From a virus: a stretch of 31,351 nt of DNA. The position numbers were made by a program, and so were the translations under genes. The notes beneath the pieces were generated by a model, which worked only from the letters and a program-made list of their open reading frames with translations, was not told the origin of the DNA and ran no database searches. Position 1 is the first letter of the stretch; each line of letters opens with the position of its first letter. Location: IMG/VR virus record IMGVR_UViG_3300047678_000496, positions 1 to 31,351 of that record. One strand, given 5' to 3'. Of this stretch, positions 4,580-27,287 are shown one piece after another.

Positions 4580-4953
4580 AGGTCCTAGACGAGCTGAAGC
4601 GGCTAGCGAAGGCGGCGACGCCGGGACCGTGGCGCTCAGGGCGCAGTGACATGCGCTCGTACGACGCGGCGACCGGTGAGCAGTTCAAGAACATCTACGG
4701 GCCGAACTTCGAGCCCAAGCTGCACCTCGGTAACAAGATAGCTATCGAGGTAGCGAAGGCGGTCGGAGAGGCATCGCTTGAGGATGCCGCCTTCATCGCC
4801 GCCGCCAACCCGCAGACCATCCTAGCGCTGGTCGAGGTGGTGAGGGCGGCTAAGGAGATGCGCGCGAATTGGTCGGAAGCGAACCTGACCCGGCACCCGC
4901 TCCCGGCCATATTCGACGCCGCCCTGGCCAAGCTGGAAGGAATCAAGCCGTGA
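4576..4953 (+). CDS. Ead/Ea22-like phage protein
   Basis: A 125-residue protein that resembles the Ead/Ea22-like family of phage early-region proteins. The features seen are an N-terminal LKRLAKAATPGPW segment (residues about 7-20) and a DAAFIAAANPQTILALVEVV stretch (about 70-90), both characteristic of that family, followed by a C-terminal helix. The biochemical role of the family is not established; members usually lie in accessory blocks of lambdoid and other phages. The GTG start overlaps the preceding stop, and the gene overlaps the following GTG in the same way. Confidence 0.75.
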   Translation: MKVLDELKRLAKAATPGPWRSGRSDMRSYDAATGEQFKNIYGPNFEPKLHLGNKIAIEVAKAVGEASLEDAAFIAAANPQTILALVEVVRAAKEMRANWSEANLTRHPLPAIFDAALAKLEGIKP

Positions 4954-5285
4954 GCACCAAGCCCTTCGTTCCCGCGAACCAGGTTGAGGCTGAGTTGTTC
5001 GCCCGGCTCTCCGCCGCAACCGCTCGCGTCGCCGAGCTAGAGGAGGAATCGCGCTCCGGCGCGTGGACACAGCTCAAGTACATGGCTGGCGGCGAAGAGC
5101 TAATCTGTGAACTGACTGACAAGCTCTCCGCCGCAACCGCTCGCGCTTCGGAGCTGGAGAGGGAGCTGGCTCAATGGCGCACGTCCGCTTCGATGGCTTG
5201 CGAGTCGCCGCCGGACAGGTGCGATTGTGCCGGTTGCCGATTCGCTGAGCAGCTCAATGTCGCGAGGACGGAGCAGGAGACATGA
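4950..5285 (+). CDS. Small coiled-coil protein with duplicated heptad segment
   Basis: A 111-residue protein dominated by helices. A segment of the form LSAATARxxELExE occurs twice, 39 codons apart, and reflects a perfect 23-base direct repeat in the DNA. Heptad spacing of Leu/Ala/Val suggests a dimeric coiled coil. The last third is Cys-rich (MACES, CDCAGC), which could bind a metal. The start is the GTG at 4950 overlapping the previous TGA, rather than an in-frame codon at 4869 inside that gene. No family was recognised. Confidence 0.7.
   Translation: MSTKPFVPANQVEAELFARLSAATARVAELEEESRSGAWTQLKYMAGGEELICELTDKLSAATARASELERELAQWRTSASMACESPPDRCDCAGCRFAEQLNVARTEQET
5006..5145 (+). repeat. Pair of identical 23-bp direct repeats
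   Basis: The 23-base sequence at 5006-5028 is repeated exactly at 5123-5145. The copies are 117 bases apart, a multiple of three, and encode the same coiled-coil heptads in the surrounding gene. A recent in-frame segmental duplication is the simplest explanation. There are only two copies, so this is not a CRISPR array. Confidence 0.85.
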
Positions 5286-5521
5286 TCCGGTTCGTAGACA
5301 TTCGCTGCGCTGAGACGGGCTACAAATTCGCCTTCTGGGACACGGTCACGGACAAGTTCTTTTGCTACTGTGATGAGCAAGCATGGGGCACGTGGGAAGA
5401 ATTCGAGGACGCCGCGGTCCACGACGAGCACCCAGCAGACAACGCGCTCCTTGATCGGTTTGAGGCGCTCTGCCCGGAATGGCTCATCGCTCCCGACGGG
5501 AAGGGGGAGACGAATGGCTGA
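5282..5521 (+). CDS. Small hypothetical phage protein
   Basis: A 79-residue acidic protein starting at an ATG that overlaps the previous stop (ATGA). The N-terminal half alternates hydrophobic and aromatic residues (RFVDIRC, YKFAFWDT, KFFCYCDEQAW), which suggests a small beta sheet; the C-terminal half is an acidic helix. I do not recognise the family. Position inside a coupled string of small early genes suggests an accessory role. Confidence 0.68.
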   Translation: MIRFVDIRCAETGYKFAFWDTVTDKFFCYCDEQAWGTWEEFEDAAVHDEHPADNALLDRFEALCPEWLIAPDGKGETNG

Positions 5522-9225: not shown

Positions 9226-9844
9226 CGGTTCGGGCCTTGGCTAGCTCGGTCTCAAGCGCTTCGATCTTCGTCGCCGCTGCCCGCATCTCGCGCGTCACGA
9301 GCGCGATCAGGTCGGTCTTGAGGTCGGCGATGCTCCGCTCGATCTGGTCGAACCGCTGGTCGCCTTCCTTGAGGCGCTGGTCCTGCTTGATGTCCGAGTC
9401 TTTGAGGCGCCGGATTTCGTCGCGAATCAGCTCGTAGTTGCGGTTGCTGTTGCGGTCGGCACTTTGGATGGCAGCGAGAATCTGCTCTTGGCTCGCCAGC
9501 ACCTGGTCGTGCGCGCGCCGGGCGTCCTGCACGTCGTTGAATACGCTCTGGAAGAACGACCCCTCCCACCAGTCTGGCTTCTGCGCGTAGGGGCTGAGCC
9601 CGGCGGGCGGGGGCATCGCTGGCCGAGGCGCTGCTTCTGGGTTCGTCGGCGCCTCGCGGTCGGTTTCGGGGACCAGGGTTTCGGTGGTCTCGCGGGAGTC
9701 TTGGTCGGGCATTGCTCGGATTCGAAAGGCGGGGTTGTCGTCTTCAGGATCTGAAAGGGCTTGAGCGAGGAGCGCTGGCGGCGTGTGGGTGATGCCGGTC
9801 CAGACGCGTCCGAGCGTCACGGGCAGGCAGCCCGCGCTGATCAC
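9188..9844 (-). CDS. Coiled-coil protein, lysis region
   Basis: A 218-residue protein. Residues about 105-205 form one long charged coiled coil (regular Ile/Leu with Glu/Lys/Arg; IRDEIRRLKDSDIKQ and later IERSIADLKTDLIAL), preceded by a Pro-rich flexible segment and a short aromatic patch (PDWWEGSFFQSVF, about 89-101). There is no signal peptide or membrane span. The start is uncertain: GTG 9844 overlaps the endolysin stop (GTGA), while ATG 9712 would give a 174-residue protein lacking the less phage-like first 44 residues. Coexpression with endolysin and a membrane coiled-coil protein suggests a role at lysis or at the envelope, not proven. Confidence 0.7.
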   Translation of the reverse strand: MISAGCLPVTLGRVWTGITHTPPALLAQALSDPEDDNPAFRIRAMPDQDSRETTETLVPETDREAPTNPEAAPRPAMPPPAGLSPYAQKPDWWEGSFFQSVFNDVQDARRAHDQVLASQEQILAAIQSADRNSNRNYELIRDEIRRLKDSDIKQDQRLKEGDQRFDQIERSIADLKTDLIALVTREMRAAATKIEALETELAKARTDAARSAPQTPST

Positions 9845-10653
9845 GAGTCGGCCTCGAGTAGCGCCCAGGTTTTCTCACCGACGATTCCGTCGGCTGTCAG
9901 CCGCTGGCTGCGCTGGAACGCCACCACCGCGTCGCGTGTCTTCGCTCCGAAGTCGCCGTCGGGCTTCAGCTGCGCGCCGCGCTTCACCAGCGCCTCTTGC
10001 AGCTTGACGACGAGCGGACCCTTGGCGCCCAAGCGGAGCAGCGGGCGCACCTCGGGAAGCGCCGCGACGTAGACGGGGAGCGGCTCGGTCAGCTCGAGCG
10101 ACTGCGCCCGAATCGACGCAACCACCGACTTGCAATGGTGGGCGATCCGCTCGGCTGGAGTCTTGCCCCAGCCCTGATAATAGCCAGTCGGCGTGATGCC
10201 GAACTGGCCAAGCACTTCGGCATTCTCTTTGGTGCGCGCAGCCGCGCTGCTGACGCAGTAGAGGCCAGCGCTGAAGCGCTCGGTTCGGCCTTCGTTGGCG
10301 GCACGGAGCACCGTCGAGCGGCCCATGTTCACGAAGACCGCCCGGACCAGGTCTTCGGCGCCAGCGACGAGCGACGGGTACTTGCGAAACTTGGTGACGT
10401 AGCTCTTGCTTGAGCCGTCGGCCTGCGGCGTTGTGTCCGTGTACTCGAAGGTTGCACCGTTCCAGCTCGAGCCGGCCTGGATCGCACCCAGGTTAAACGA
10501 GCCGACGCCCGGCGGCTTCCACCACTGGCCGTAGCCGCTCTCGAGAGAAGCGATGGACTGCAGGTGCTGCAGCTCCGAGATTGTGCCTTCGCGGCTGAAG
10601 ATGTTTGCGAAGGCCGCGCGGAGAGCGATGCGCATTTCGGTGTGGGAAAGCAT
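9841..10653 (-). CDS. Endolysin: lytic glycosidase domain plus peptidoglycan-binding domain
   Basis: A 270-residue endolysin predicted to cleave peptidoglycan glycan strands at lysis. The N-terminal domain has an HLQSIASLESGYG segment, where Glu38 in the Glu-Ser-x-Tyr-Gly context is the likely catalytic acid of a lysozyme-like or transglycosylase fold, followed by a GSFNLGAIQ strand. The last 65 residues form a peptidoglycan-binding type 1 domain (LLRLGAKGPLVVKLQEAL ... DGDFGAKTRDAVVAFQ ... VGEKTWALL). No signal peptide is seen, so a holin should be needed. ATG 10653 is preferred to an in-frame codon at 10701 because GGGGAG lies eight bases upstream and it shares one base with the previous stop. 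Confidence 0.9.
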   Translation of the reverse strand: MLSHTEMRIALRAAFANIFSREGTISELQHLQSIASLESGYGQWWKPPGVGSFNLGAIQAGSSWNGATFEYTDTTPQADGSSKSYVTKFRKYPSLVAGAEDLVRAVFVNMGRSTVLRAANEGRTERFSAGLYCVSSAAARTKENAEVLGQFGITPTGYYQGWGKTPAERIAHHCKSVVASIRAQSLELTEPLPVYVAALPEVRPLLRLGAKGPLVVKLQEALVKRGAQLKPDGDFGAKTRDAVVAFQRSQRLTADGIVGEKTWALLEADS

Positions 10654-11249
10654 CAGAGACGCTCCCCGCCAGGGACCAGGATGATGCCCTTGGCCGCGCA
10701 CTCATCGGTGAGCTTGACCACCTCTGGCCCGTTCTTCTCGCCGCGGCGCTGCGCCTCGACGAGCCGGTTGTAGGCCCAGTGTAGGCGCACCGACTCCAGA
10801 ATGAACTCGACCGTCTCGCGGTTCCGATGCTCATCGCAGAGGTAGAAGTGGCGATGCTGCCCGAGGCGGGCCATGCCGGCGGTGAACTCCGAACAGCCTG
10901 GGCGTTTGCAGGCGTGGAGTGTGTCGACCTTGCCGGTTGGCTTGCCGTAGAACTCCAGCTCGTTGTCGAGTTGGTACTGCTGGTAGCAGGCGTCAGCCTC
11001 GGCGGCCGTCGCGTGCCCGTCGCGGTGGTACTTGGCCTGGTGCGGGCGCTTGGCTTCCGTGTCCCGGTTCAGCGACTCGACGAATCCAGAACCGAGCTGC
11101 TTCTCGAGCCGCTCTGCCTCTTCGCCCGTAGCCGGCTCGCGCCAGCCCGCGCAGTAGCCGATCGCGTGAGCGGCGCTGCTGCCCGTGCCCGACGTCATGT
11201 CCCAGCGCTTATCGGACTCGCGTTGAAGAGCTTGGATGTAGGTCGTCAT
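10653..11249 (-). CDS. Hypothetical protein with Cys/His metal-site-like motif
   Basis: A 198-residue hydrophilic protein of unrecognised family, placed between a small membrane protein and the endolysin. A central segment has HACKRPGCSEF (about 112-122), then HRHFYLCDEH (about 132-141), a spacing that would suit one zinc ion. The rest is mostly helical and charged. The ATG at 11249 has GAGGG about eight bases upstream. Its stop overlaps the endolysin start. Its role in lysis is suggested only by position. Confidence 0.72.
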   Translation of the reverse strand: MTTYIQALQRESDKRWDMTSGTGSSAAHAIGYCAGWREPATGEEAERLEKQLGSGFVESLNRDTEAKRPHQAKYHRDGHATAAEADACYQQYQLDNELEFYGKPTGKVDTLHACKRPGCSEFTAGMARLGQHRHFYLCDEHRNRETVEFILESVRLHWAYNRLVEAQRRGEKNGPEVVKLTDECAAKGIILVPGGERL

Positions 11250-11259
11250 TCGAATGCCC

Positions 11260-11400
11260 TCAAGCTGCAGCCGCGTACTGCGGCCGCGGTTGTTCTCGCC
11301 GTGCTTTCTTCGCCTCGCCCCACGCCCAGGGCAGCAGCACGGTCAGGACAATCACCACGGCAGCGCCAACGGTGACGGCCTTGTCGTAGGCGTGGCGCAT
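11260..11400 (-). CDS. 46-residue single-span membrane protein (holin/spanin-like position)
   Basis: A short gene that overlaps the upstream stop as TGATG (ATG at 11400). It encodes 46 residues: a short N-terminus with one net basic character, one hydrophobic span (AVTVGAAVVIVLTVLLPWAW, residues 8-27) and a basic/Gln/Pro-rich tail ending in several Ala residues. Size, single span and placement just before the endolysin cluster suit a small holin or a membrane partner in lysis, but sequence alone does not identify it. The good spacing to both neighbours and the coupled start support it as a real gene. Confidence 0.66.
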   Translation of the reverse strand: MRHAYDKAVTVGAAVVIVLTVLLPWAWGEAKKARREQPRPQYAAAA

Positions 11401-12062
11401 CACTCCGCCCTAAAGCAAAGCGCTGCTGTCACTATCGTGTGTCCCGGAATGCAGCGCCGAACAGCGCCGCCCTCACCGGTCGGACAGCGGCTCACGATCC
11501 CGACGACGTCGCTCCGGGTGTCGAGCACAGGCGAGCCCGACCAGCCAGCGTTGATGGTTTGATTTGTGGCAAACCAATCCCCACCGATCCAGCCCTTGAC
11601 CTTGCCAGCCGAAGACTCGCGAAAGATCGGGCTGTAGCTGAGCACGTTGTCGTCGACGAGCGGGGAGGGTCCGACCCGAAGCGGCGCGACCATGTCGGGG
11701 TCGCCCAGCGCGAGGAACGCCACGTCCACCGAGTCGTTGCGCTCGATCAGATAGGCGTACCCGTGGCCCCAGCCCGACGGCGCGTAGAAGTGCAGCCGCG
11801 TTGTGTTCGCGGTACCGGCAGGCACGCAGTGCGACGCCGTCGCCAGCATCGTTTGCCCCTGCCGCGCAATCGCGAATGCGGCGCAGTGCGGCTCGTAGCT
11901 GTAGGCGTACCGACACTTCTCCTCGGGGAAGCCGAGGCACGTCGGAGGCGGCGCCGGCTGGAGCAGCGTCACGACACTGTCGGGGCGGATGGGCGCTGGC
12001 GCGCGCGGGGCCGCGCAAGCGACGATGACGAACGCCAATAGCGCGACGGCGAGGCGGATCAT
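11400..12062 (-). CDS. Lipoprotein with trypsin-like serine protease domain
   Basis: A 220-residue protein with an N-terminal lipoprotein signal (hydrophobic 1-15, Cys16 in a V-A-C context) and a trypsin-like protease domain. The catalytic triad is visible: His78 in TASHC, Asp113 in SVDVAFL, Ser175 in NAGWSGSP, with the usual strand after the Ser (VVGIV). Extra Cys pairs (42/50/60/79, 193/204/216) suggest disulfides and an extracytoplasmic location. It would be tethered to the outer or inner membrane. It lies between membrane proteins and the endolysin, where spanins are usually found, so it may help break the envelope, process a virion or surface protein, or act in exclusion. The ATG overlaps the previous stop (ATGA). 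Confidence 0.85.
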   Translation of the reverse strand: MIRLAVALLAFVIVACAAPRAPAPIRPDSVVTLLQPAPPPTCLGFPEEKCRYAYSYEPHCAAFAIARQGQTMLATASHCVPAGTANTTRLHFYAPSGWGHGYAYLIERNDSVDVAFLALGDPDMVAPLRVGPSPLVDDNVLSYSPIFRESSAGKVKGWIGGDWFATNQTINAGWSGSPVLDTRSDVVGIVSRCPTGEGGAVRRCIPGHTIVTAALCFRAE

Positions 12063-13385: not shown

Positions 13386-15839
13386 TCAACCAATGCGGCC
13401 GCGGCGGGTTCCGTGGCCGACCCGGCCGCGAGGAGCGATATGGCCGACCCGCTCGCGCGCGGGCGCGAACCCGATTCGGCCTGGGCCTGCGGGGTCGACA
13501 ACCGCCGCGTCGTGCTGCTCGAGCTGGGCGCTCGGTGTCTGGAGTTGGTTCGCCGAAAGGAAGGCGAAGTAGTTCCGCCCGCGCGCCTGGGTCGGCGCCT
13601 GCGTGACGATTGCGGCAACGGACCGAGCCAGCGCGCGCGCCCGCGAGGGCGTCTGCACTTGCACGGCCGAGAGCGCGAAGCCAAGCGCCCGTGTGACGAC
13701 GAACGTCTGCACCGCAGTTGCCGCGCGGTTGATGCCAGCCCCGATCGCTCGCGCCGGCGCCTGGACGACGGTCGCCGCGAAGGTCCGGAAGTACCCGCGC
13801 CCGACGATCGCGGTAGGCGTCTGCGTGTTGGTGGCGGCGATCGCCTGGCGGTTCAACGCGCGCACGCGCGTAGGCGCTTGGGTTGACGTGGCGGTTAGCC
13901 TGCTAGCCAACGCGCGGACGACCGTCAGCGCCTGGAGAGCTATCGCCGTCGCCACCCGTCCGACCGATCGCACCGGGGCGGCCGTGGTTTGCGACTGCGT
14001 GGCGGACCGGGTCCTCCCCACTTCACGGAGGCGTGCGGGCGTCTGGCTTGCGGTGACGATACCGACCGAGCGAGCAACGGCTCGCAATCGCACGGGGGCC
14101 TGGGTCTGCGTGCCTGCGAGTTGCCGCCCGATGGCCCGGACCAGCGAGACCGTCTGGGTGACGGCCGCCGACAGCGTCATGCTCTGGCCGCCGCTGCCGT
14201 TCTGCTGGACGCCGGCGGTGGGGGTCTGGGTCTGGGTGAAGCTGAGCGCTCGGGCGAGCGCACGGGTCAAGGCGAGAACCTGGACGGCGACGACCAGCAG
14301 CGTCCGGGCGAGAGCTCTCGAGGCCAGGCTGGGCGCCTGGGTTTGCGTGGCCGAGCGGACGACCCCGACGCTGCGCAGGCGGGAGGGGGTCTGGCTGGCG
14401 GTGACGGCCGCCACCGACTTGCCCACGTCGCGCTGGCGGGTCGGCGTTTGCGTGCCGGTGACCACGGCCAGAGGCCGCGCAAGGTCGCGCGTGCGGGTCG
14501 GCGCCTGCGTGGCCGTGACTAATTTCGTAGCCCCGACGGCCCGAGCCCGAACCGGGGCCTGGGTCTCCGTCACGGACTTCACGGCGCCGACGTTGCGCGC
14601 GACCGCTGGCGTCTGAGCAGCCGTGGCGGAAATGGTTTGGGTGTAGAGCTGGCCCTTCAGGACGGTCAGCGCCTGCGCGATCGTGGCGCTGATAGCGCGC
14701 GCGATCGCGCGCACGTAGGACGGCGCCTGCGCCGCGGTCAGGGACTTCGTCACCGCGAGGCCACGGGCCACCGTCGACGCCTGGGTCTCGGTGGCCGCCC
14801 GCGCCACGCCGACGGCCTTGGAGCCAACGGTGGCCGCCTCGACCTGCGTCGCCGATACCGAGCGCCCCACGAGCTTGATGGGGGAGGGCGTCTCCGCGTT
14901 CGTCACGCTGAAGGTGAAGGGCAACGCGCGGGCCCGAGTGGGCGTCTCGACGTTCGTCTGGCTCTTCACCGCGGCCACGCCGCGCACGATCGAGAGGGTT
15001 TGCGCCTGGGTGGCGCTGATCGTCATTGGCGTGTTGGAGCCGCCGCCGCTGCTGCCGAACGAATAGATGACCGGGAGAGGTGCCCGGAAAACCTGCCAGG
15101 GCTTGTCGAGATAGGACCGCGCCTCGAGCTGCGACCAGGTGCGTTGGCTCTCGCCGTACGCTTCGACAATCTGGTTGCCGCTCTCGGCCTCGGAGGTGTT
15201 TACGTCGAAGCGCTTGCGCCCGATGTAGAGGCTCTCCGACGTCGCCGCGCCGGTCGTTCCTGAGCCGTTTTGGCCCGCCGCCATGGGGGCCAGGCCGTTG
15301 TAGCCAGGGCCGCGCAAGTAGATGTTGATTCCGCTCGCGTTGTTCGTTCCGTCGTAAGTGATGACGAAGACGTAGCGAGTCTTGTCCGCCAAAACCGCTG
15401 AGGTGACGCGCCTGACGTTGACCGTCGCTCGCGTGAGTACGAGGCCGAAGCCGTACGACGCTCCGCCGTAGTGGCGCCCAATCTGGTGCCCGCGGTCGTT
15501 ATTCGCATCGGTCTGCGCGGCAATGCAGAGGTCTGCAAACGCGTTCGTCGTGAAGATGCCGAAAAACGTTGCCGGCGTCTGGTGCAGGTTCGCGGTCGCC
15601 GCGTACGTCCCGAAGTTGAGGTCGCAGGCCCCTTCCGCTCCACCCGTGAAACGCCACGCTGGCCCCGCTTCGCTCGTGATCCGCGACGCGGCCGTGATGG
15701 TCGGTCGGGTGTTCTTGATGTACGAGAGGCCGTGGTGGCCGTGGAACAAGAAGACGCAGCCCCGCAGTAGCGGATTTTGCGCCGCCAGTTCCACGCGCTG
15801 CCACGGCGGCATCCCGCGAACGAACGGTTCGGGGCGCAT
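13386..15839 (-). CDS. Large tail fibre: LamG-like lectin domain plus about 27 short tandem repeats
   Basis: An 817-residue fibre. Residues about 20-260 look like a concanavalin/LamG-type lectin domain (WRFTGGAEG; YVFVITYDGTNNASGINIYLRG fits the strand pattern). A Gly-rich hinge leads to residues about 272-775, built from roughly 27 degenerate repeats of 18-19 residues with a consensus like (S/A)-x-T-x-T-Q-(A/T)-P-x-x-x-R-x-(V/L). The repeats alternate hydrophobic and polar residues, as expected for a fibrous beta structure. The C-terminal 40 residues are Arg/Gly-rich. DNA of the repeats is less conserved than the protein pattern, so the array is probably old and under selection. It likely binds cell-surface glycans. 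The antisense strand shows long open frames, which are composition shadows. Confidence 0.85.
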   Translation of the reverse strand: MRPEPFVRGMPPWQRVELAAQNPLLRGCVFLFHGHHGLSYIKNTRPTITAASRITSEAGPAWRFTGGAEGACDLNFGTYAATANLHQTPATFFGIFTTNAFADLCIAAQTDANNDRGHQIGRHYGGASYGFGLVLTRATVNVRRVTSAVLADKTRYVFVITYDGTNNASGINIYLRGPGYNGLAPMAAGQNGSGTTGAATSESLYIGRKRFDVNTSEAESGNQIVEAYGESQRTWSQLEARSYLDKPWQVFRAPLPVIYSFGSSGGGSNTPMTISATQAQTLSIVRGVAAVKSQTNVETPTRARALPFTFSVTNAETPSPIKLVGRSVSATQVEAATVGSKAVGVARAATETQASTVARGLAVTKSLTAAQAPSYVRAIARAISATIAQALTVLKGQLYTQTISATAAQTPAVARNVGAVKSVTETQAPVRARAVGATKLVTATQAPTRTRDLARPLAVVTGTQTPTRQRDVGKSVAAVTASQTPSRLRSVGVVRSATQTQAPSLASRALARTLLVVAVQVLALTRALARALSFTQTQTPTAGVQQNGSGGQSMTLSAAVTQTVSLVRAIGRQLAGTQTQAPVRLRAVARSVGIVTASQTPARLREVGRTRSATQSQTTAAPVRSVGRVATAIALQALTVVRALASRLTATSTQAPTRVRALNRQAIAATNTQTPTAIVGRGYFRTFAATVVQAPARAIGAGINRAATAVQTFVVTRALGFALSAVQVQTPSRARALARSVAAIVTQAPTQARGRNYFAFLSANQLQTPSAQLEQHDAAVVDPAGPGRIGFAPARERVGHIAPRGRVGHGTRRGRIG
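13520..15026 (-). repeat. Array of about 27 degenerate 54-57 bp coding repeats
   Basis: The fibre gene contains consecutive units of 18-19 codons, recognisable from a recurring Thr-Gln-(Ala/Thr)-Pro box followed by Arg and an aliphatic residue. Units vary strongly in DNA sequence but stay in frame, and only a few depart from the box (for example the unit with the SGGQSMTL insertion near the middle). This is a protein-level repeat, not a CRISPR or VNTR array with identical units. Confidence 0.85.
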
Positions 15840-17009: not shown

Positions 17010-18410
17010 TCACTGCAGCTTCATCGCCCAAACGCCCGACTCCCACATGCCCGCGTACATGATGCCATTGACGGCATCGACCTTCGTGAACTCGAAGGTG
17101 CCGTAGTTGGCGGTACCCGTAGCGCTCCAGCTGTTTCCGTTGTCGGCGACAGTGTCGACGTTCAGGGGTGAGGTGCTGCTTGCGTGCGTCCAGCGGCCCG
17201 AGAACAGATTGGGGCCGTCGCCACCAACCGCCATGTGGTGCCCGTAGACGGCAGTGGTGAGCGCCGTCCACGTCACGCCGTTGTCCATTGAGCGGATGGG
17301 GTAGCCCACTCCGCCGCTGAACAGTGCGCCGCCGGGTGCGTAGTAGATCGCGTTGCCGCCGTGGACTTGGTTGACGGTGGTGACCTTCGTCCACGTCGAG
17401 CCGCTGTTCGTGGTGCGCCAAAAGCCAGCGCCCTGCGTGCCGTAAAGCCAAGTCTGTGAGTTGCCCTGACCGCTCGCGAGGTCGTACAGAAACGCGATGG
17501 TGTTGCCGGGCTGCGTGCCCTGCCAGCCGGAGATGGCTAGGTGCTCGACCCACGAGACGCCTTTGTTGAAGGACTCACCGACGCCCGGAGCCCCGCCGCT
17601 TGCGGGCGAGTGGAACGCGACCAGCACGTGCGCGAAGTCGGTCGGGTCAACAGCGATGCTGTAAACGTCGTCGTATTGGGCGAGCGCGTTCGACCAACTC
17701 GAGCGCGCGGACCAGGTCGTGCCGCCGTTGCTCGAGTAGAAGAAGTCATTCGTGGCCGCGGAGCCCACGCCGGTTCCAACGTACAGCTCGTTGCTGTTCG
17801 CGGGGTTGACTCGTACCTGCGTCACGCCGGCAAAGGTTCCGACCTCGCTCCAGCTCGAGCCGCAGTTGGTCGTCTTGTACAGACCCGGCGCGGGGCCAGC
17901 GTAGATTCCGGCCCACACCTTGCCCGGGTTGTTGGGGTCGATAGCGACGCCGAAGCCCGCGCCGTCGCCAGGCACGCCGAGCGGCGGCTGTGTGACGGTC
18001 GGTCGCCAAACGCCAGGCGTGTAGGCGGAGAGGTCGCAAGTCGGTGCCGCGCCGCCTGCGCCGGCAGAACCCGCTGAGCCGCCCGCTCCGGCCGAGCCCG
18101 CGCTGCCAGCCGCGCCGCCAGAGCCAGAAGCCCCGCCGTTGCCCGCAGATGCGTCGGCCGAGCCTGAGACACCGCCCGCGCCAGAAGAAGCCCCAGCCGC
18201 GCCAGAAGCGCCCGCGCCGCCCGTGGACGCGCCCGCGCCTGAGGAGCCAGCGTCTCCGCCGGAGCCCGCCGAGCACGTGCACACGCAGCCCTCAGGGCAA
18301 ACGAAGTCGAGGTTTTGGCGGAGTGCGCCGAGCCGGTCAGTCTCGCCCGAGGCGCAGGCGAAGAGCCCGACGATGGCTAGAGCGAGGCAGAGAAATGCTT
18401 TTTTGATCAT
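17010..18410 (-). CDS. Lipoprotein with Gly/Ser/Ala linker and six-bladed BNR (Asp-box) propeller
   Basis: A 466-residue protein with a lipoprotein signal (hydrophobic 5-18, Cys19 after L-F-A), a short Cys-rich patch (38-46), a 75-residue Gly/Ser/Ala linker (47-122) and a beta-propeller. Six Asp-box (BNR) turns of type S/T-x-(N/D)-x-G-x-(S/T)-W are visible at about 180, 226, 280, 333, 374 and 421, spaced 41-54 residues as in sialidase-like or Ycf48/Vps10-like propellers. No catalytic set of a sialidase was recognised, so glycan or protein binding is more likely than hydrolysis. Lipid-anchored, linker-spaced propellers are typical of Myxococcota surface proteins, yet this gene is within the tail-fibre operon and in its orientation. 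No Shine-Dalgarno is obvious. Confidence 0.86.
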   Translation of the reverse strand: MIKKAFLCLALAIVGLFACASGETDRLGALRQNLDFVCPEGCVCTCSAGSGGDAGSSGAGASTGGAGASGAAGASSGAGGVSGSADASAGNGGASGSGGAAGSAGSAGAGGSAGSAGAGGAAPTCDLSAYTPGVWRPTVTQPPLGVPGDGAGFGVAIDPNNPGKVWAGIYAGPAPGLYKTTNCGSSWSEVGTFAGVTQVRVNPANSNELYVGTGVGSAATNDFFYSSNGGTTWSARSSWSNALAQYDDVYSIAVDPTDFAHVLVAFHSPASGGAPGVGESFNKGVSWVEHLAISGWQGTQPGNTIAFLYDLASGQGNSQTWLYGTQGAGFWRTTNSGSTWTKVTTVNQVHGGNAIYYAPGGALFSGGVGYPIRSMDNGVTWTALTTAVYGHHMAVGGDGPNLFSGRWTHASSTSPLNVDTVADNGNSWSATGTANYGTFEFTKVDAVNGIMYAGMWESGVWAMKLQ

Positions 18411-22437: not shown

Positions 22438-23235
22438 TTATTCAACGATCAGGCGGTCGCCGCTCTCGGTAGTCAGGAAGTCGCCGCCCTCTGTGAGTAG
22501 GTAAGAACCGGCGATCGCTTCGAAGTCGACCAGCACGCCGCCCCAGAGGTGGAGTGGACGCAGCTTCAGGACGAGGCGTTCGAACTCAGCGCGACGCGTG
22601 ATGTCCACGACTGCGTGAGTCGGGAAGGTCGCGCCCGCGATGTAGAACCAGTACGGGAAGGTGTCCGGGTCGTCAGGTACCGGCGGCGGAGCGCGCCGCG
22701 TCAGGTCTTTGTTGACCAGGTAGTAGACTTCGTTCGCTAGCCAGTCGTTGCACTGCGGCTGCGTCGGCAGCGCCGAGCACTGCGGCTGCGTCGGGAGCCC
22801 GTCACCGGTGCACTGGTAGATGCCGACGAGCGCGACCTCGGTATAGGTGCGCGGGTCGCGAGCGACGTAGGGCGGGCCGGAGCTCCACCAGTCGTAGACG
22901 TAGACGTCGAAGCCAGCGGCCCGAAGAACGCCTTGGATGTAGCTGGGCGACTGACCGCCGGTGGCTCGCCACTCAGCCGCGAGAGCGAGACGCCCGGCGA
23001 CCACGGCAGCCGGCGTCGACATGTCCGTGAGCGACAGTCCAAACTGCCGCTCCCACTCATTCAGCTCTCGCGTCGTCTCCGGAAAGAGGTCGAGATAGAC
23101 GTTGTCGACGTACGCCTTCGTGAGCGCAGGCTGCTCCGACAAGCCCAGGAAGAACTTGCGAAGCGTCGAGTCGATGACCGCGCGCCAAGCCTGGCCCGTC
23201 GGCAACAGATGTTGAAAAGTACGAAAGAAGCTCAC
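22438..23235 (-). CDS. Baseplate protein, Mu gp48/YmfQ-like (DUF2313)
   Basis: A 265-residue baseplate wedge protein of the Mu gp48/YmfQ family, which links gp47 to the tail fibres. Residues 10-17 (LLPTGQAW) and 50-67 (LFPETTRELNEWERQFGL, split by a few residues) are the family signature. A short insertion near 142-160 carries LPTQPQC twice. The C-terminal 20 residues repeat a L-x-T-E-x-G-D unit, common in phage structural proteins. The start is GTG 23235 with no clear Shine-Dalgarno. Separated from the upstream fibre gene by an inverted lipoprotein gene. Confidence 0.86.
   Translation of the reverse strand: MSFFRTFQHLLPTGQAWRAVIDSTLRKFFLGLSEQPALTKAYVDNVYLDLFPETTRELNEWERQFGLSLTDMSTPAAVVAGRLALAAEWRATGGQSPSYIQGVLRAAGFDVYVYDWWSSGPPYVARDPRTYTEVALVGIYQCTGDGLPTQPQCSALPTQPQCNDWLANEVYYLVNKDLTRRAPPPVPDDPDTFPYWFYIAGATFPTHAVVDITRRAEFERLVLKLRPLHLWGGVLVDFEAIAGSYLLTEGGDFLTTESGDRLIVE
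22750..22794 (-). repeat. Two 18-bp tandem repeats inside gp48-like gene
   Basis: An 18-base sequence at 22750-22767 is repeated exactly at 22777-22794, with a period of 27 bases. It encodes the doubled LPTQPQC in the gp48-like protein. A small in-frame duplication; likely recent. Confidence 0.85.
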
Positions 23236-23274
23236 GGTTTTGGGTCGCTTCCGTACGCGTCAGATGTTCAGCCG

Positions 23275-23303
23275 TTGCGCTCGCGGCGCCGGCCCCGTAC
23301 GCT
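23275..23303 (+). promoter_or_regulatory. Possible weak promoter for the plus-strand lipoprotein gene
   Basis: TTGCGC (23275-23280) and TACGCT (23298-23303) are separated by 17 bases and keep the most conserved TTG and TA---T positions of a sigma-70-type promoter. The predicted transcription start is within a few bases of the ATG at 23312, and no Shine-Dalgarno is present, so the transcript may be nearly leaderless. Match quality is low in this GC-rich DNA. Confidence 0.3.
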
Positions 23304-23311
23304 TTCCGATC

Positions 23312-24223
23312 ATGAAGAGGCTGCTGGGGTTGGTGACGCTGGTGATCGCGTGCTCGTCGGGGACGGAGGCAGAGTTCGGCGACTCGAGCGCAGCGGGCGC
23401 GCTGCCCGTTGCTCATGCTGGAGCCAGCGGCGCCGTGTCGCGCGCTGGCACGGCGGGCGAGAGCGGCGGCGGAGCGAGCGCTGGCGGCACCTCGCTGGCT
23501 GCTGGCTCGCCGGCTGCCCTTGCGGGTGCCGGTGGCGAACCTGCTGAGGGTGGTGAGTCAAGCGGCGGCGCGCCATCTGCTGGCGCGCCCGCCGGATCGA
23601 GCGGCTCAACCAATCGAGCCGGAAGCCAAGCGGCAGGAAGCGGCGGAGCGGCAGGGAACGTCGGGAGCGCTGGCACCGGCGGCGCGGCAGGCAGCTCGAC
23701 CGCTGGCGCCGCTGGCACGCAGAGCGCCCCAGACCCGTGCGCTGGCGCCATTCACTGGGACAAGAGCGAGCGCTGGGCGGATCTCGTCACTGGTACGCTT
23801 CGTCACTTTGCCGGTTCGCTCTGGAAATGCCAGGCCGCCGACTACTGCAGATTCTACCCAGGTAACGGTGAGCCCAACGGCTGGGCTGCTGTGGCCGCGT
23901 GCGCGAGTGGGCCGCTCAAAGAGGCCGAGTGCCAGTGCGCTGAGGGCGCGTGCTGCGACGGATGCTACATCCGCCCGCCTTCGTACTTTTGCGGGGAAGT
24001 CGTCCGCTACGCCCGCTGCACCGGCAAGGCGCCGCTTTCATGCCCGGGCAGCAAGCCCGACATCGAAGGCGACTACTGGAACCTGTTCTGCGACGGGGAT
24101 ACTGCAGGCGAGTGCACGCGGTGGGGAGCTCATACGAAGTTCGCTGGAGCAGGGCAGTGCGGTAGCATGGGCCTGGTGTGCGTTGAGCAAGGTGACCAAG
24201 CCAGCTGCGCGGCGTGTAACTAG
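23312..24223 (+). CDS. Moron lipoprotein: Gly/Ser/Ala linker plus Cys-rich, carbohydrate-binding-like domain
   Basis: A 303-residue protein encoded opposite to all neighbouring tail genes. It has a short lipoprotein signal (1-13, Cys14 after V-I-A), a low-complexity Gly/Ala/Ser linker (about 24-138) and a C-terminal domain with 18 Cys in 160 residues. Residues about 145-197 (LVTGTLRHFAGSLWKCQ ... C ... NGWAAVAAC) resemble a small chitin-binding (CBM5/12-like) module; residues 205-303 form a second Cys cluster with CCDGC. Disulfides imply an exported, surface location. It fills the space between a fibre gene and gp48 almost exactly, as expected for a moron. It may alter the lysogen surface or be a captured host gene. 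An in-frame start at 23240 lacks a signal and is rejected. Confidence 0.83.
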   Translation: MKRLLGLVTLVIACSSGTEAEFGDSSAAGALPVAHAGASGAVSRAGTAGESGGGASAGGTSLAAGSPAALAGAGGEPAEGGESSGGAPSAGAPAGSSGSTNRAGSQAAGSGGAAGNVGSAGTGGAAGSSTAGAAGTQSAPDPCAGAIHWDKSERWADLVTGTLRHFAGSLWKCQAADYCRFYPGNGEPNGWAAVAACASGPLKEAECQCAEGACCDGCYIRPPSYFCGEVVRYARCTGKAPLSCPGSKPDIEGDYWNLFCDGDTAGECTRWGAHTKFAGAGQCGSMGLVCVEQGDQASCAACN

Positions 24224-24231
24224 ACCATGCA

Positions 24232-25650
24232 TCACGCCATCACGGCGACCTTGCCGCATTGCTGCCAGTAAAGAGCTCCAGCGATCTCGACGGCTACGAA
24301 ATTCATCGTGAAGCTCTGGCCAACCAGAAGACCAGCGAAGGCTGACCCAGCCTCGGTGAGCGCCGTCGTCCCGTCGGCTTTCTGCCATGCGACCTGACCA
24401 GACCAAGTCGAGCCACCTCCGTTGAACAGCGAGACGGCAAGCGGCTGGCCAGCATACAGCACGTTTGGCAGCTTCGCCGTTGGTGCCGCGGAGACGCCGC
24501 TAGTGATGCGCACCGAAGCCGCGCCGTCCGGAATTACGATTGTGGCGCTGGCAGCGGCGTCGAAAAGAACACCTGGAATCAGGTCCACAAAGGAACCAGC
24601 GCCAGCTCGAGCCGTGCTGAAGCGAGTCAGAGCGCTTGGCCCGACCCACTCGTTGCCATACGCCCGCACGATCCCGCCTGTGGTCCACGCGAGACCCGTG
24701 ACCGGTCCCGACATGCCAGTCGCGTCGACCTTGCAGTCATGCATGGTCAACAGCGCGGTAGTCGAGATGTTGTAGGCGATCTTAGCCGAGCCCGTCGTGT
24801 GGGCCTTGAGATCGAAGGCGCACGCGAGTTCGACGTTGGCGGAGTTGTCGACCAGCACCAGCGATGCCGTGTAGGTCGCCGGCATCGACATCTTTCCGCC
24901 AAGAATACGGAGCCTGCCGTCGTTTGCTTCGATCCCGTTGACATTCCCCGACACCGCAAGCCGGCAGTCGAGGAACGTCAACTCCGACGCGGAGGTTTGG
25001 ACGCGCGCGAGCTTGCCATTCAGGCCGCTGCCGAACGAGCACCGGATGAACGTCATCCGAGCCCCGACCGCGTTCTCTACGCACGTGCCCGTGTTGGCCA
25101 CGTTGCCGACGAAGATGATGTCGCTGACGACGGTCTCGGGGCCGCTATTGACCTGCGTGGGCGTGAGCGCGCCGTTCGTGGCGTGGTCCAGAGCCAGGTA
25201 CGTCGCCCCCGGCGTGCCTTTCAGCGAGACGTTGTCCGGGATGCTGAGGCCGGTGTAGAGGAAGTATCCCGGGCCAAACCACACGATTCCGCCGCTTACG
25301 GCCGCCGCGCTGATCGCGTTTTGGATCGCCGTCTGCGACGAGACGCCACCAGTCGGATCGGCGCCGAAGTTCGAGACGGGGAAGGTCGCTCTGGCTGCCT
25401 CCGCAATCCACTTGATTGCGTCGAGGTACTGAGAAGCGTTCGCTTTGTCCGGCGTGCCCGAAGGCGTGATTCCAGCAGCAATCAGCAACGCCTGCTGCAA
25501 ACCGAGAATGTCGTTGACCAGATCCTTTTCGAGCGGCGTGCCGTTTCCGTCACCTTCAACGGTGACGTTCTGGGCCTTCCCGTAGGGGTAGCCACCTGGG
25601 TCAATCGTAGAGACTTGCCCTGAATAGCGAACGGTAAGATCGAGTGCCAT
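24232..25650 (-). CDS. Tail fibre/tailspike with pectate-lyase-like beta-helix
   Basis: A 472-residue protein. Residues 19-80 are a typical tail-fibre attachment region: GGYPYGKAQNVT, GDGNGTPLEKDLVNDILG and AGITPSG. Residue 94 starts NFGADPTGG, and the following SQTAIQNAISAA and GGIVWFGPGYF are the entry of the pectate-lyase/right-handed beta-helix fold found in tailspike depolymerases; the next 200 residues show beta-helix-like repeats of short strands. The C-terminal 120 residues are a beta domain. It may degrade or bind host exopolysaccharide; no catalytic residues can be named. It is placed between gp47 and gp48, an unusual position for a fibre. Confidence 0.85.
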   Translation of the reverse strand: MALDLTVRYSGQVSTIDPGGYPYGKAQNVTVEGDGNGTPLEKDLVNDILGLQQALLIAAGITPSGTPDKANASQYLDAIKWIAEAARATFPVSNFGADPTGGVSSQTAIQNAISAAAVSGGIVWFGPGYFLYTGLSIPDNVSLKGTPGATYLALDHATNGALTPTQVNSGPETVVSDIIFVGNVANTGTCVENAVGARMTFIRCSFGSGLNGKLARVQTSASELTFLDCRLAVSGNVNGIEANDGRLRILGGKMSMPATYTASLVLVDNSANVELACAFDLKAHTTGSAKIAYNISTTALLTMHDCKVDATGMSGPVTGLAWTTGGIVRAYGNEWVGPSALTRFSTARAGAGSFVDLIPGVLFDAAASATIVIPDGAASVRITSGVSAAPTAKLPNVLYAGQPLAVSLFNGGGSTWSGQVAWQKADGTTALTEAGSAFAGLLVGQSFTMNFVAVEIAGALYWQQCGKVAVMA

Positions 25651-25662
25651 TGAGTCTCAGCC

Positions 25663-26856
25663 TCAGACGTAAGTAGGGTCGCCGTTGAGCTTCGCCTTCT
25701 CGCCAGCCAACAACGTGTAGGCCGGAACCTCGGTTGCCCCCAGTAGCAAGACTACCTTGGCAACCGTTGCGCCCTTCGCGCTCACGATGGAGTCGACAAT
25801 GCCACTCACTGCGGCGGCGGTGACTCGGTCCAGCCTTGGCAGGCTTGAGAGTCCCACGATGTACGGCTCGCGCGAACGCAGGTGTTCGTCGATGCCCTCT
25901 TTGAGGGCATCCCGGATCTCGGGAGTGTCAGGGCTGAGCGCGGAAATCTGCACGCCGAACCCCACGCGAGTAATCGGCAGCACGTTCTTCGCGGCGCTGA
26001 TCGGTCGTCGCGTAGCAAGGCCGGACTCGTTCAGCTCGATAGCGTCACCAACTGCCGCGAGCTGCGGCGCCGTCGGAATGCCGTCCGGGCTTCCAGAACT
26101 CGCTTCGTCGGCCTCGACGTAGATGTTCACTTGCCCAGGCGGGCCCGCGTACGGGTACGCGTTCACGATGCCCAGCACCTCTTCAGCCCATTGCTGGTAG
26201 TCCGCGTAGGCTCCGCCTTGGGGGCGGCGCTGGGCGCGGTCCAGGATGCGGCCGCGGTACCGGTCGATGGACTCAGCGTCCGCTGCGGTCACCGCCTGCG
26301 AAGCAACCGTGGCCTTGGTGGCCACGTTCGGCAGCGGGTTGGCGAATTCGAGGACGTCGCCAGCAACCAGGTTGCCCAGCGTGCCGGAGCCGTCGCCACC
26401 GTTGGGGCTCGAGATGGCGCGGATGCGGACGGGCACCGTCGCCGCGTTAAGCGGAACTGCGGCGACCACGACGTAGATGAACTGCGTCGCGTTGCGCACC
26501 AGCTGGGAGCCGGCGGCCAGGTCGCCGACCTGGTTCGTGACCGAGACATTGACGATCAATTCCGCGCGGGTGGCGGGGTCAGGATCGCCTACGCCAAAGA
26601 GCCGACCGAGCTCGACCAGTGGCCGAAGCTTACGGCCGTTGACCGTCGTCTCCTTGTCCGTGGCGTAGGCCACGAACATTTGGAGAAACATGAAGCCGGC
26701 GTACTTGAAGAGCAGGACGAAGATGCCGGCGAGCACCTTGGCGAGGACGCGGGCGAACGACTTCGGCAGCAGCGGGATCGTCTGCGAAAGCGCCGCTTCC
26801 AGCTGCCCGATGATGTTGCTGCTGAGCTCTTCGGTCGTGGGGACTACGAGGCTCAA
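25663..26856 (-). CDS. Baseplate J-like protein (Mu gp47)
   Basis: A 397-residue baseplate wedge protein of the gpJ/Mu gp47 family (Baseplate_J). Signature parts include the hydrophobic N-terminal helical region (VLAKVLAGIFVLLFKYAGF), GRLFGVGDPDPATRAEL, the beta-rich region with VRNATQFIYVV, and the central ESIDRYRGRILDRAQRRPQGG (in part) followed by ADYQQWAEEVLG, which is the most diagnostic segment. The start is uncertain: TTG 26856 overlaps the gp46 stop (TTGA) and is preceded by a G-rich stretch, while GTG 26868 would add four residues. Part of the gp45-gp46-gp47-gp48 series. Confidence 0.92.
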   Translation of the reverse strand: MSLVVPTTEELSSNIIGQLEAALSQTIPLLPKSFARVLAKVLAGIFVLLFKYAGFMFLQMFVAYATDKETTVNGRKLRPLVELGRLFGVGDPDPATRAELIVNVSVTNQVGDLAAGSQLVRNATQFIYVVVAAVPLNAATVPVRIRAISSPNGGDGSGTLGNLVAGDVLEFANPLPNVATKATVASQAVTAADAESIDRYRGRILDRAQRRPQGGAYADYQQWAEEVLGIVNAYPYAGPPGQVNIYVEADEASSGSPDGIPTAPQLAAVGDAIELNESGLATRRPISAAKNVLPITRVGFGVQISALSPDTPEIRDALKEGIDEHLRSREPYIVGLSSLPRLDRVTAAAVSGIVDSIVSAKGATVAKVVLLLGATEVPAYTLLAGEKAKLNGDPTYV

Positions 26857-27287
26857 TTGGCCCCCCACTTCTTGGTGAATTCGATAACGAACTCGACCTG
26901 CTGAATCACCACGGTGATCGTCATTTTCACGGCGTTCAAGGCAGGGATGCTGGCAACGGCGTTAACGACGCTCGCGAGCTTCGTCTCCGTCATCCACGCC
27001 AAATCGTTGGTGATGGCGTTCTCGATCCGAAGCAGGTTGGCCGACGTCGCTGGGATGCTGCGCAGTAGGAACTGCGTCTCGCTGCGGTACTGCCGCTCGG
27101 GCTTGCTCTCTTCGACGTTGCCCCACCAGGTCTTCGACTCGTCGCCCTGGTCGCCCGAGTCGGCGTCGTTGCCACCGAACAGGCTCAAGGCCACGGCGGA
27201 CTCGACACCGTCGTCCATCGTGAGTTGCCCCGCGATGCATTCGATCTCGCCGCCATCGGGCAGAAGCCTTAGAGCGACGTCAGTCAT
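26853..27287 (-). CDS. Mu gp46-like baseplate protein
   Basis: A 144-residue protein of the phage GP46 family, a small baseplate component homologous in position to gp25-like proteins. Visible features are an acidic N-terminus (DVALRLLPDGGEIE), a WWGN-x-EES segment near 54-60, LLRSIPATSANLLRIENA and DLAWM. It lies between a small virion protein and gp47, as in Mu-like gene orders. Confidence 0.88.
   Translation of the reverse strand: MTDVALRLLPDGGEIECIAGQLTMDDGVESAVALSLFGGNDADSGDQGDESKTWWGNVEESKPERQYRSETQFLLRSIPATSANLLRIENAITNDLAWMTETKLASVVNAVASIPALNAVKMTITVVIQQVEFVIEFTKKWGAN

Follow-up and report, generated by a model that had tools for sequence, protein, structure and literature searches.

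Lipoproteins that phages encode beside their receptor-binding or tail-tip genes include Llp of T5, Cor of T1 and phi80, and Rtp45 (PMC9586334, PMC12685063). In T5 the Llp gene adjoins the receptor-binding gene pb5, coliphages commonly encode exclusion lipoproteins downstream of gpJ (PMC9586334), and a separate structure shows the exclusion lipoprotein Rtp45 on LptDE (PMC12685063). The known exclusion lipoproteins are small (about 6 kDa for Rtp45), have no long linker, and act in the periplasm, engaging the receptor from its periplasmic side (PMC9586334, PMC12685063). The SitA proteins of the Mx-alpha elements of Myxococcus are prophage-borne outer-membrane lipoproteins that have variable C-terminal domains, contain disordered stretches past the lipobox, and always occupy the same position in the element; some are preceded by a small upstream gene, sitB (PMC5562445, PMC8546572). 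Finally, the morons of lambdoid phages are extra genes among the late genes that have their own promoter and are absent from close relatives.

The gene analyzed here, which lies in a 31,351-nucleotide stretch of viral DNA (IMG/VR record IMGVR_UViG_3300047678_000496; hereafter, the window), resembles each of these systems in part. Our best explanation, held at a little less than even confidence, is that it is a conversion gene of the moron type, encoding an envelope protein with a lipid anchor that would be made apart from the late operon, with superinfection exclusion as its favored job. The features of the locus are as follows (window coordinates):

22438–23235, minus strand: baseplate wedge protein similar to Mu gp48 (Pfam and PHROGs), divergent from the lipoprotein gene across a 76-bp gap
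23254–23271, plus strand: TACGCGTCA-N3-GTTCAG, a conserved block immediately preceding the predicted -35 element and a possible regulator or UP site
23275–23303, plus strand: promoter predicted by comparison of relatives, with -35 TTGCGC (23275–23280), N17, -10 TACGCT (23298–23303), N8, ATG
23312–24223, plus strand: inverted lipoprotein gene, ATG to TAG, 303 aa, no internal stop
23312–23353, plus strand: host-type signal peptide II with lipobox VIAC, lipid-attached Cys14, and Ser at +2
23378–23731, plus strand: flexible Gly/Ala/Ser linker, aa 23–140
23732–23923, plus strand: extra Cys-containing module, aa 141–204, shared only with contig L037 and having no family match
23924–24220, plus strand: disintegrin-like Cys-rich head, CxCxxGxCCDGC, aa 205–303
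24232–25650, minus strand: tailspike with conserved N-terminus and pectate-lyase-like tip (Pfam and PHROGs), converging on the lipoprotein gene
25663–26868, minus strand: baseplate J-like protein (Mu gp47; Pfam), the upstream flank of the site

Consistent with the original prediction, the gene runs opposite to the late operon, the surrounding tail genes all being on the minus strand, and it fits snugly into its place, as its stop codon (24221–24223) falls 8 bases short of the spike ORF end at 24232. The N-terminus of its product matches the lipobox pattern [LVI][ASTVI][GAS]C at VIAC (Cys14); a lipobox is present in all 14 lipoprotein members checked, and the +2 residues are of the outer-membrane type. 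The window protein also has Ala at +7, a residue that, by an M. xanthus rule, may direct a lipoprotein to the inner membrane (PMC5562445). The 118-aa linker consists of 29% G, 29% A, and 17% S (75% Gly/Ala/Ser together), and the head in its full extent (163 aa) contains exactly the 18 Cys that had been counted, or 19 with the lipobox Cys. Because homologues combining a lipobox, a low-complexity linker, and a Cys-rich head share both site and orientation in other phages, comparison indicates that this is more than a chance ORF.

The resemblance between this linker and that of the BNR lipoprotein of the window, which had been pointed out previously, was also seen by us. The latter, a BNR/sortilin-like lipoprotein with a Gly/Ala/Ser linker (17010–18410, minus strand), is transcribed in the late-operon sense and has a homologue in L031 (18133–19413, 33% identity). 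Two further minus-strand genes of the window were recorded: one encodes a lipoprotein with a Trypsin_2 domain (11400–12062, E 5.6e-10), a putative phage-encoded envelope protease located near an endolysin-like gene, while the other encodes an 817-aa protein that has many imperfect TQTQAPTRxRAV-type repeats and no Pfam match (13386–15839).

With gp48, J, and the head as queries, more than 100 loci were gathered. Among the loci compared, the region between J and gp48 exists in three states: (i) empty; (ii) spike only; and (iii) spike plus inverted lipoprotein gene. At 83 more distant loci (some of them repeat fetches of one contig), J leads directly into gp48 with no gene between, and the spike, where seen, comes after gp48. 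Six of the nearest relatives (L076 and L079–L083) and the more distant L030 have the order J-spike-gp48, in which spike and gp48 are separated by -7 to +11 bp, and lack the lipoprotein gene. The gene follows the spike in the window and in 15 other contigs, 16 in total (L031, L037, L038, L040, L041, L069, L070, L072, L073, L074, L075, L077, L084, L095, and L177); of these, the L038 contig ends before gp48, and the L074 lipoprotein comprises only 97 aa. The spike gene thus precedes gp48 in the clade of the window and follows it in most other relatives, and its product has an N-terminus that is conserved across relatives but bears unrelated tips.

In a tree built from J and gp48, the carriers together with L076 and L079–L083 form one clade (support 1.0), inside which the carriers are not monophyletic and two lineages, L076 and L079–L083, are without the gene; the deep nodes of this tree are weak for counting gains and losses. 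The comparison for an empty site that the original prediction had called for therefore found one, and of the two observations that the prediction had set against itself, conservation of the gene in all related phages and silence in lysogens, the first is not what we see, since the gene is not universal among related phages. That close relatives either have or lack the gene at this site, together with a promoter predicted for the gene itself (see below), supports a moron-like gene between tail genes. It differs from the morons of lambdoid phages in being kept at one site through a whole clade while its head domain is exchanged.

The two gene-free lineages inside the clade could also be taken to mean that the gene is an insertion, either decaying or selfish, that now serves no function. 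However, every complete lipoprotein copy seen has an intact reading frame, no frameshifted copies occurred among the close relatives found, and the Cys pattern and the promoter are conserved over copies that share only ~30–45% protein identity; we rank this explanation as the least likely of those considered.

A lipoprotein gene with a CCDGC head was also detected in L179, an unrelated Mu-type phage, where it lies inverted (4927–5499, plus strand) with a gp45-like baseplate gene on one side and a D-like one on the other; the L179 tail genes and those of the window gave no match by tblastn. As this unrelated phage carries the design at another baseplate position, the comparison indicates that the design entered phage tail operons at least twice.

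A generic sigma-70 scan returned no promoter upstream of the lipoprotein gene. Comparison of relatives identified the pattern TTGCGY-N17-TAnnnT at four loci (the window, L031, L037, and L041), its end lying 6–9 nt from the ATG. In this tight form it occurs once per locus in these four and nowhere else there; 200 Markov shuffles of the window contained no copy, and the chance of such a match directly before a random start is P ~ 2e-5. The pattern was derived from these four loci, so that L069 and L070, which were found later, constitute a fair test; both match (TTGCGC-N17-TACG(A/C)T-N8-ATG), and the geometry is thus found in at least five other phages (L031, L037, L041, L069, and L070). Within the window, the only exact match to TACGCGTCA-N3-GTTCAG is the block at 23254–23271, and GTTCAG also stands ahead of the -35 element in L037, L069, L070, L072, L075, L040, and L177. 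An alternative promoter version, GTTCAGTTGACG with CCAT 17 nt on, is common to L072, L075, and L177; the L040 upstream region has TTGACA; and no clear version emerged from the upstream regions compared in L073, L077, L084, and L095. An IMG/VR scan with the promoter returned 15 contigs, in three of which the match belongs to the lipoprotein gene, whereas the other matches lie elsewhere and are not spaced in this way from an ATG. No enrichment that would mark a general host promoter was seen in 57 genomes sampled from one phylum (two matches versus two in the reversed control). The promoter-like sequence that had been noticed in the window is, on this comparison, a well-supported promoter prediction. 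As the -10 element ends 8 nt before the ATG and no Shine-Dalgarno sequence is present, the mRNA is predicted to be leaderless.

No terminator-like site was found at 24180–24290, and only 8 nt lie between the gene and the convergent spike ORF. A terminator of its own is not found in every moron, and its absence here is not decisive for assignment to that class. Because no terminator was found, late transcripts should cross the lipoprotein gene in the antisense direction.

In four carriers, L041 (9396–9641, plus strand), L073, L074, and L075, the gene that comes first behind this divergent promoter region, upstream of the lipoprotein gene, encodes a small protein of 81–111 aa with the conserved sequence AVAxYxxAKxxG...CxxAGLxxAAxLQAKxExxYxxWKxxExxDC. 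A homologue is encoded by an inverted gene at a different place in L038 (2641–2940, plus strand); Pfam and PHROG searches with this protein gave nothing above threshold.

The position of the lipoprotein gene within the tail operon could suggest a virion or lysis component, i.e., a tail-associated lipoprotein or outer-membrane spanin encoded by chance on the other strand. We consider this very improbable, given the predicted promoter, the opposite strand, and the lipid anchor, the absence of the gene from close relatives whose tail operon is otherwise the same, and an endolysin-like gene with a PG-binding domain that lies ~13 kb off (9841–10701).

Carriers L031, L040, and L075, as well as the non-carrier L080, have tyrosine integrase genes on their contigs; none was found in the window, which is a fragment, and no serine recombinases were found in 19 contigs. 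Because relatives carry integrases, we conclude from gene content that the phage group includes temperate phages. The linker style and the cellular homologues of the head (see below) indicate that the host is probably a myxobacterium-like organism. A search of 572 genomes (377 + 195) of two sampled phyla identified no close prophage, only three and one distant gp48 matches, respectively.

When the head was used as a single sequence, the genome scan gave no match; a phage alignment was required. With it, the module was detected in secreted or surface proteins encoded mostly by Myxococcota MAGs, and also by one Diapherotrites and one Paceibacterota MAG. These cellular proteins carry trypsin, Amidase_3, peptidase-like (M64-like), or IgGFc-binding domains, sometimes with two or more copies of the module, and Pfam calls disintegrin repeats in two of them. 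A profile of phage and cellular copies matched snake disintegrins weakly in the PDB (E 0.013, ~40 residues). AlphaFold2, which depended strongly on its input (pLDDT 34.5 with six sequences versus 88.6 with twenty), yielded an all-beta domain from the larger set (pTM 0.67). In VIA-align, disintegrin domains ranked first with this model (Z 5.5 and 5.1, 48–49 residues aligned), an intermediate score with half of the model covered, and most of the top rows are disintegrins; Foldseek against the PDB and BFVD gave no significant match. None of the phage heads reaches the Pfam gathering score for PF00200, and the head sequence found no match among annotated phages, the PDB, or PHROGs. The phage heads and their Myxococcota relatives share the CxxGxCCxxC core with disintegrin domains; the phage heads fall below the Pfam and significance thresholds, are matched over about half of their length, and differ in Cys spacing in the C-terminal half. 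We therefore regard "disintegrin-like" as a fair description based on sequence and model, not as a family assignment. To our knowledge, such heads have rarely been reported in phages.

The original prediction had taken the Cys-rich domain for carbohydrate-binding and had proposed a homology search. That search led elsewhere, to a disintegrin-like, disulfide-rich module of secreted Myxococcota proteins corresponding to the C-terminal ~100 aa, and the carbohydrate-binding claim is left unsupported: no carbohydrate-binding match, CBM_5_12 included, was found in Pfam, PHROGs, or the PDB, and a missing match does not exclude binding. A disintegrin-like head would suggest protein contact rather than sugar binding.

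The CxCxxGxCCDGC module ends 12 of the 16 lipoproteins, including that of the window, and is preceded in the window and L037 by the further module of ~60 aa. The other four carry different heads: L069 and L072 have a second type (44% identity), L095 has a third, and L074 has a short one without a match. The L069 head includes a stretch, YRDQDKDGFGD...NSDDCFDGN, that by eye is like the Cu-binding_MopE motif of Myxococcota surface proteins; it has no Pfam match. No pairing of head type with spike-tip type was seen in the comparison of tips and heads. The window and L069 have related spike tips and unrelated heads, L069 and L072 have the same head type and different tips, and L040 and L072 share part of the tip and differ in their heads. 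A spike-specific lock is weakened by this, as head type does not track spike tip. The exchange of heads would also accord with a bolder reading, which we regard as doubtful, in which one inverted slot beside the tailspike, in phages of what are probably myxobacteria, holds a self-promoted lipoprotein whose at least three unrelated Cys-rich heads are exchanged, forming a polymorphic marker on the surface that would control whether given phages or neighbor cells can interact with the infected cell. If the host engages in outer-membrane exchange, this marker could even pass to uninfected kin.

Variable C-terminal domains on prophage-borne outer-membrane lipoproteins at a fixed place also characterize SitA (PMC5562445, PMC8546572), so that a polymorphic lipoprotein toxin, spread among myxobacteria by outer-membrane exchange, had to be weighed. 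Disorder past the lipobox is a further likeness, and the small upstream gene of L041, L073, L074, and L075 recalls sitB. However, the gene is not followed by an immunity gene, as the convergent spike gene comes next in the window and in relatives; the lipoprotein matches no toxin family; and the heads are Cys-rich modules of the type found in secreted proteins, not nucleases. The window gene also differs in lying on the opposite strand inside a tail operon. We judge a SitA-type toxin to be improbable.

The main rival to superinfection exclusion is host fitness, i.e., lysogenic conversion for the benefit of a myxobacterial-type lysogen in which the lipoprotein would act as an adhesin on the surface, as a docking factor for proteases, or as a protective coat, aiding clumping, predation, or attachment. 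This is a tentative possibility that we take seriously: apart from these phages, the module occurs in host proteins, namely proteases of the trypsin-like kind, Amidase_3 enzymes, peptidases resembling M64, and surface proteins of the IgGFc-binding type; the head is disintegrin-like, and the disintegrin is a protein-binding fold in animals; the heads vary independently of the spike; and the window also encodes the BNR and trypsin-like lipoproteins. Host benefit does not account, however, for a gene that keeps its place next to the spike across 16 phages.

Superinfection exclusion is favored because phage lipoproteins encoded beside receptor-binding genes exclude in T5, T1, phi80, and Rtp. The window gene lies similarly, 8 nt from the tailspike gene, whose product would be the receptor-binding protein. 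In contrast to those small proteins, which lack a long linker and act on the periplasmic side, the window protein has 303 aa, a 118-aa linker, and a disintegrin-like head, and has no sequence match to them; as 303 aa exceeds their size of about 6–10 kDa, we do not class it with Llp, Cor, and Rtp45. The small size and periplasmic action of the known exclusion lipoproteins, together with heads that do not track spike tips, are the reasons for keeping the exclusion reading below one half. The Ala at +7, which may favor the inner membrane, is a further point against it, while the 15 other contigs, the empty site, the conserved promoter, the lipobox, the integrases of carriers, and the L179 case are points for our explanation as a whole.

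Under superinfection exclusion, host RNA polymerase would use the promoter in lysogens or at an early stage of infection, giving a leaderless mRNA, and the lipoprotein would be delivered to the outer membrane. The linker would hold the head off the anchor, out to where phage receptors lie, and the head would mask or alter the surface and thereby impair the adsorption of related phages. During late gene expression, judging by the anatomy of the locus, antisense transcription from the convergent late operon may shut the gene down.

The promoter provides a concrete prediction, namely expression apart from the late operon as a leaderless mRNA. Phage genes that remodel the host surface have mostly been noticed only in hosts that are laboratory strains; since the gene slot, the promoter, and the exchangeable heads are recognizable by comparison alone in uncultured phages, many more such genes may be findable by position.
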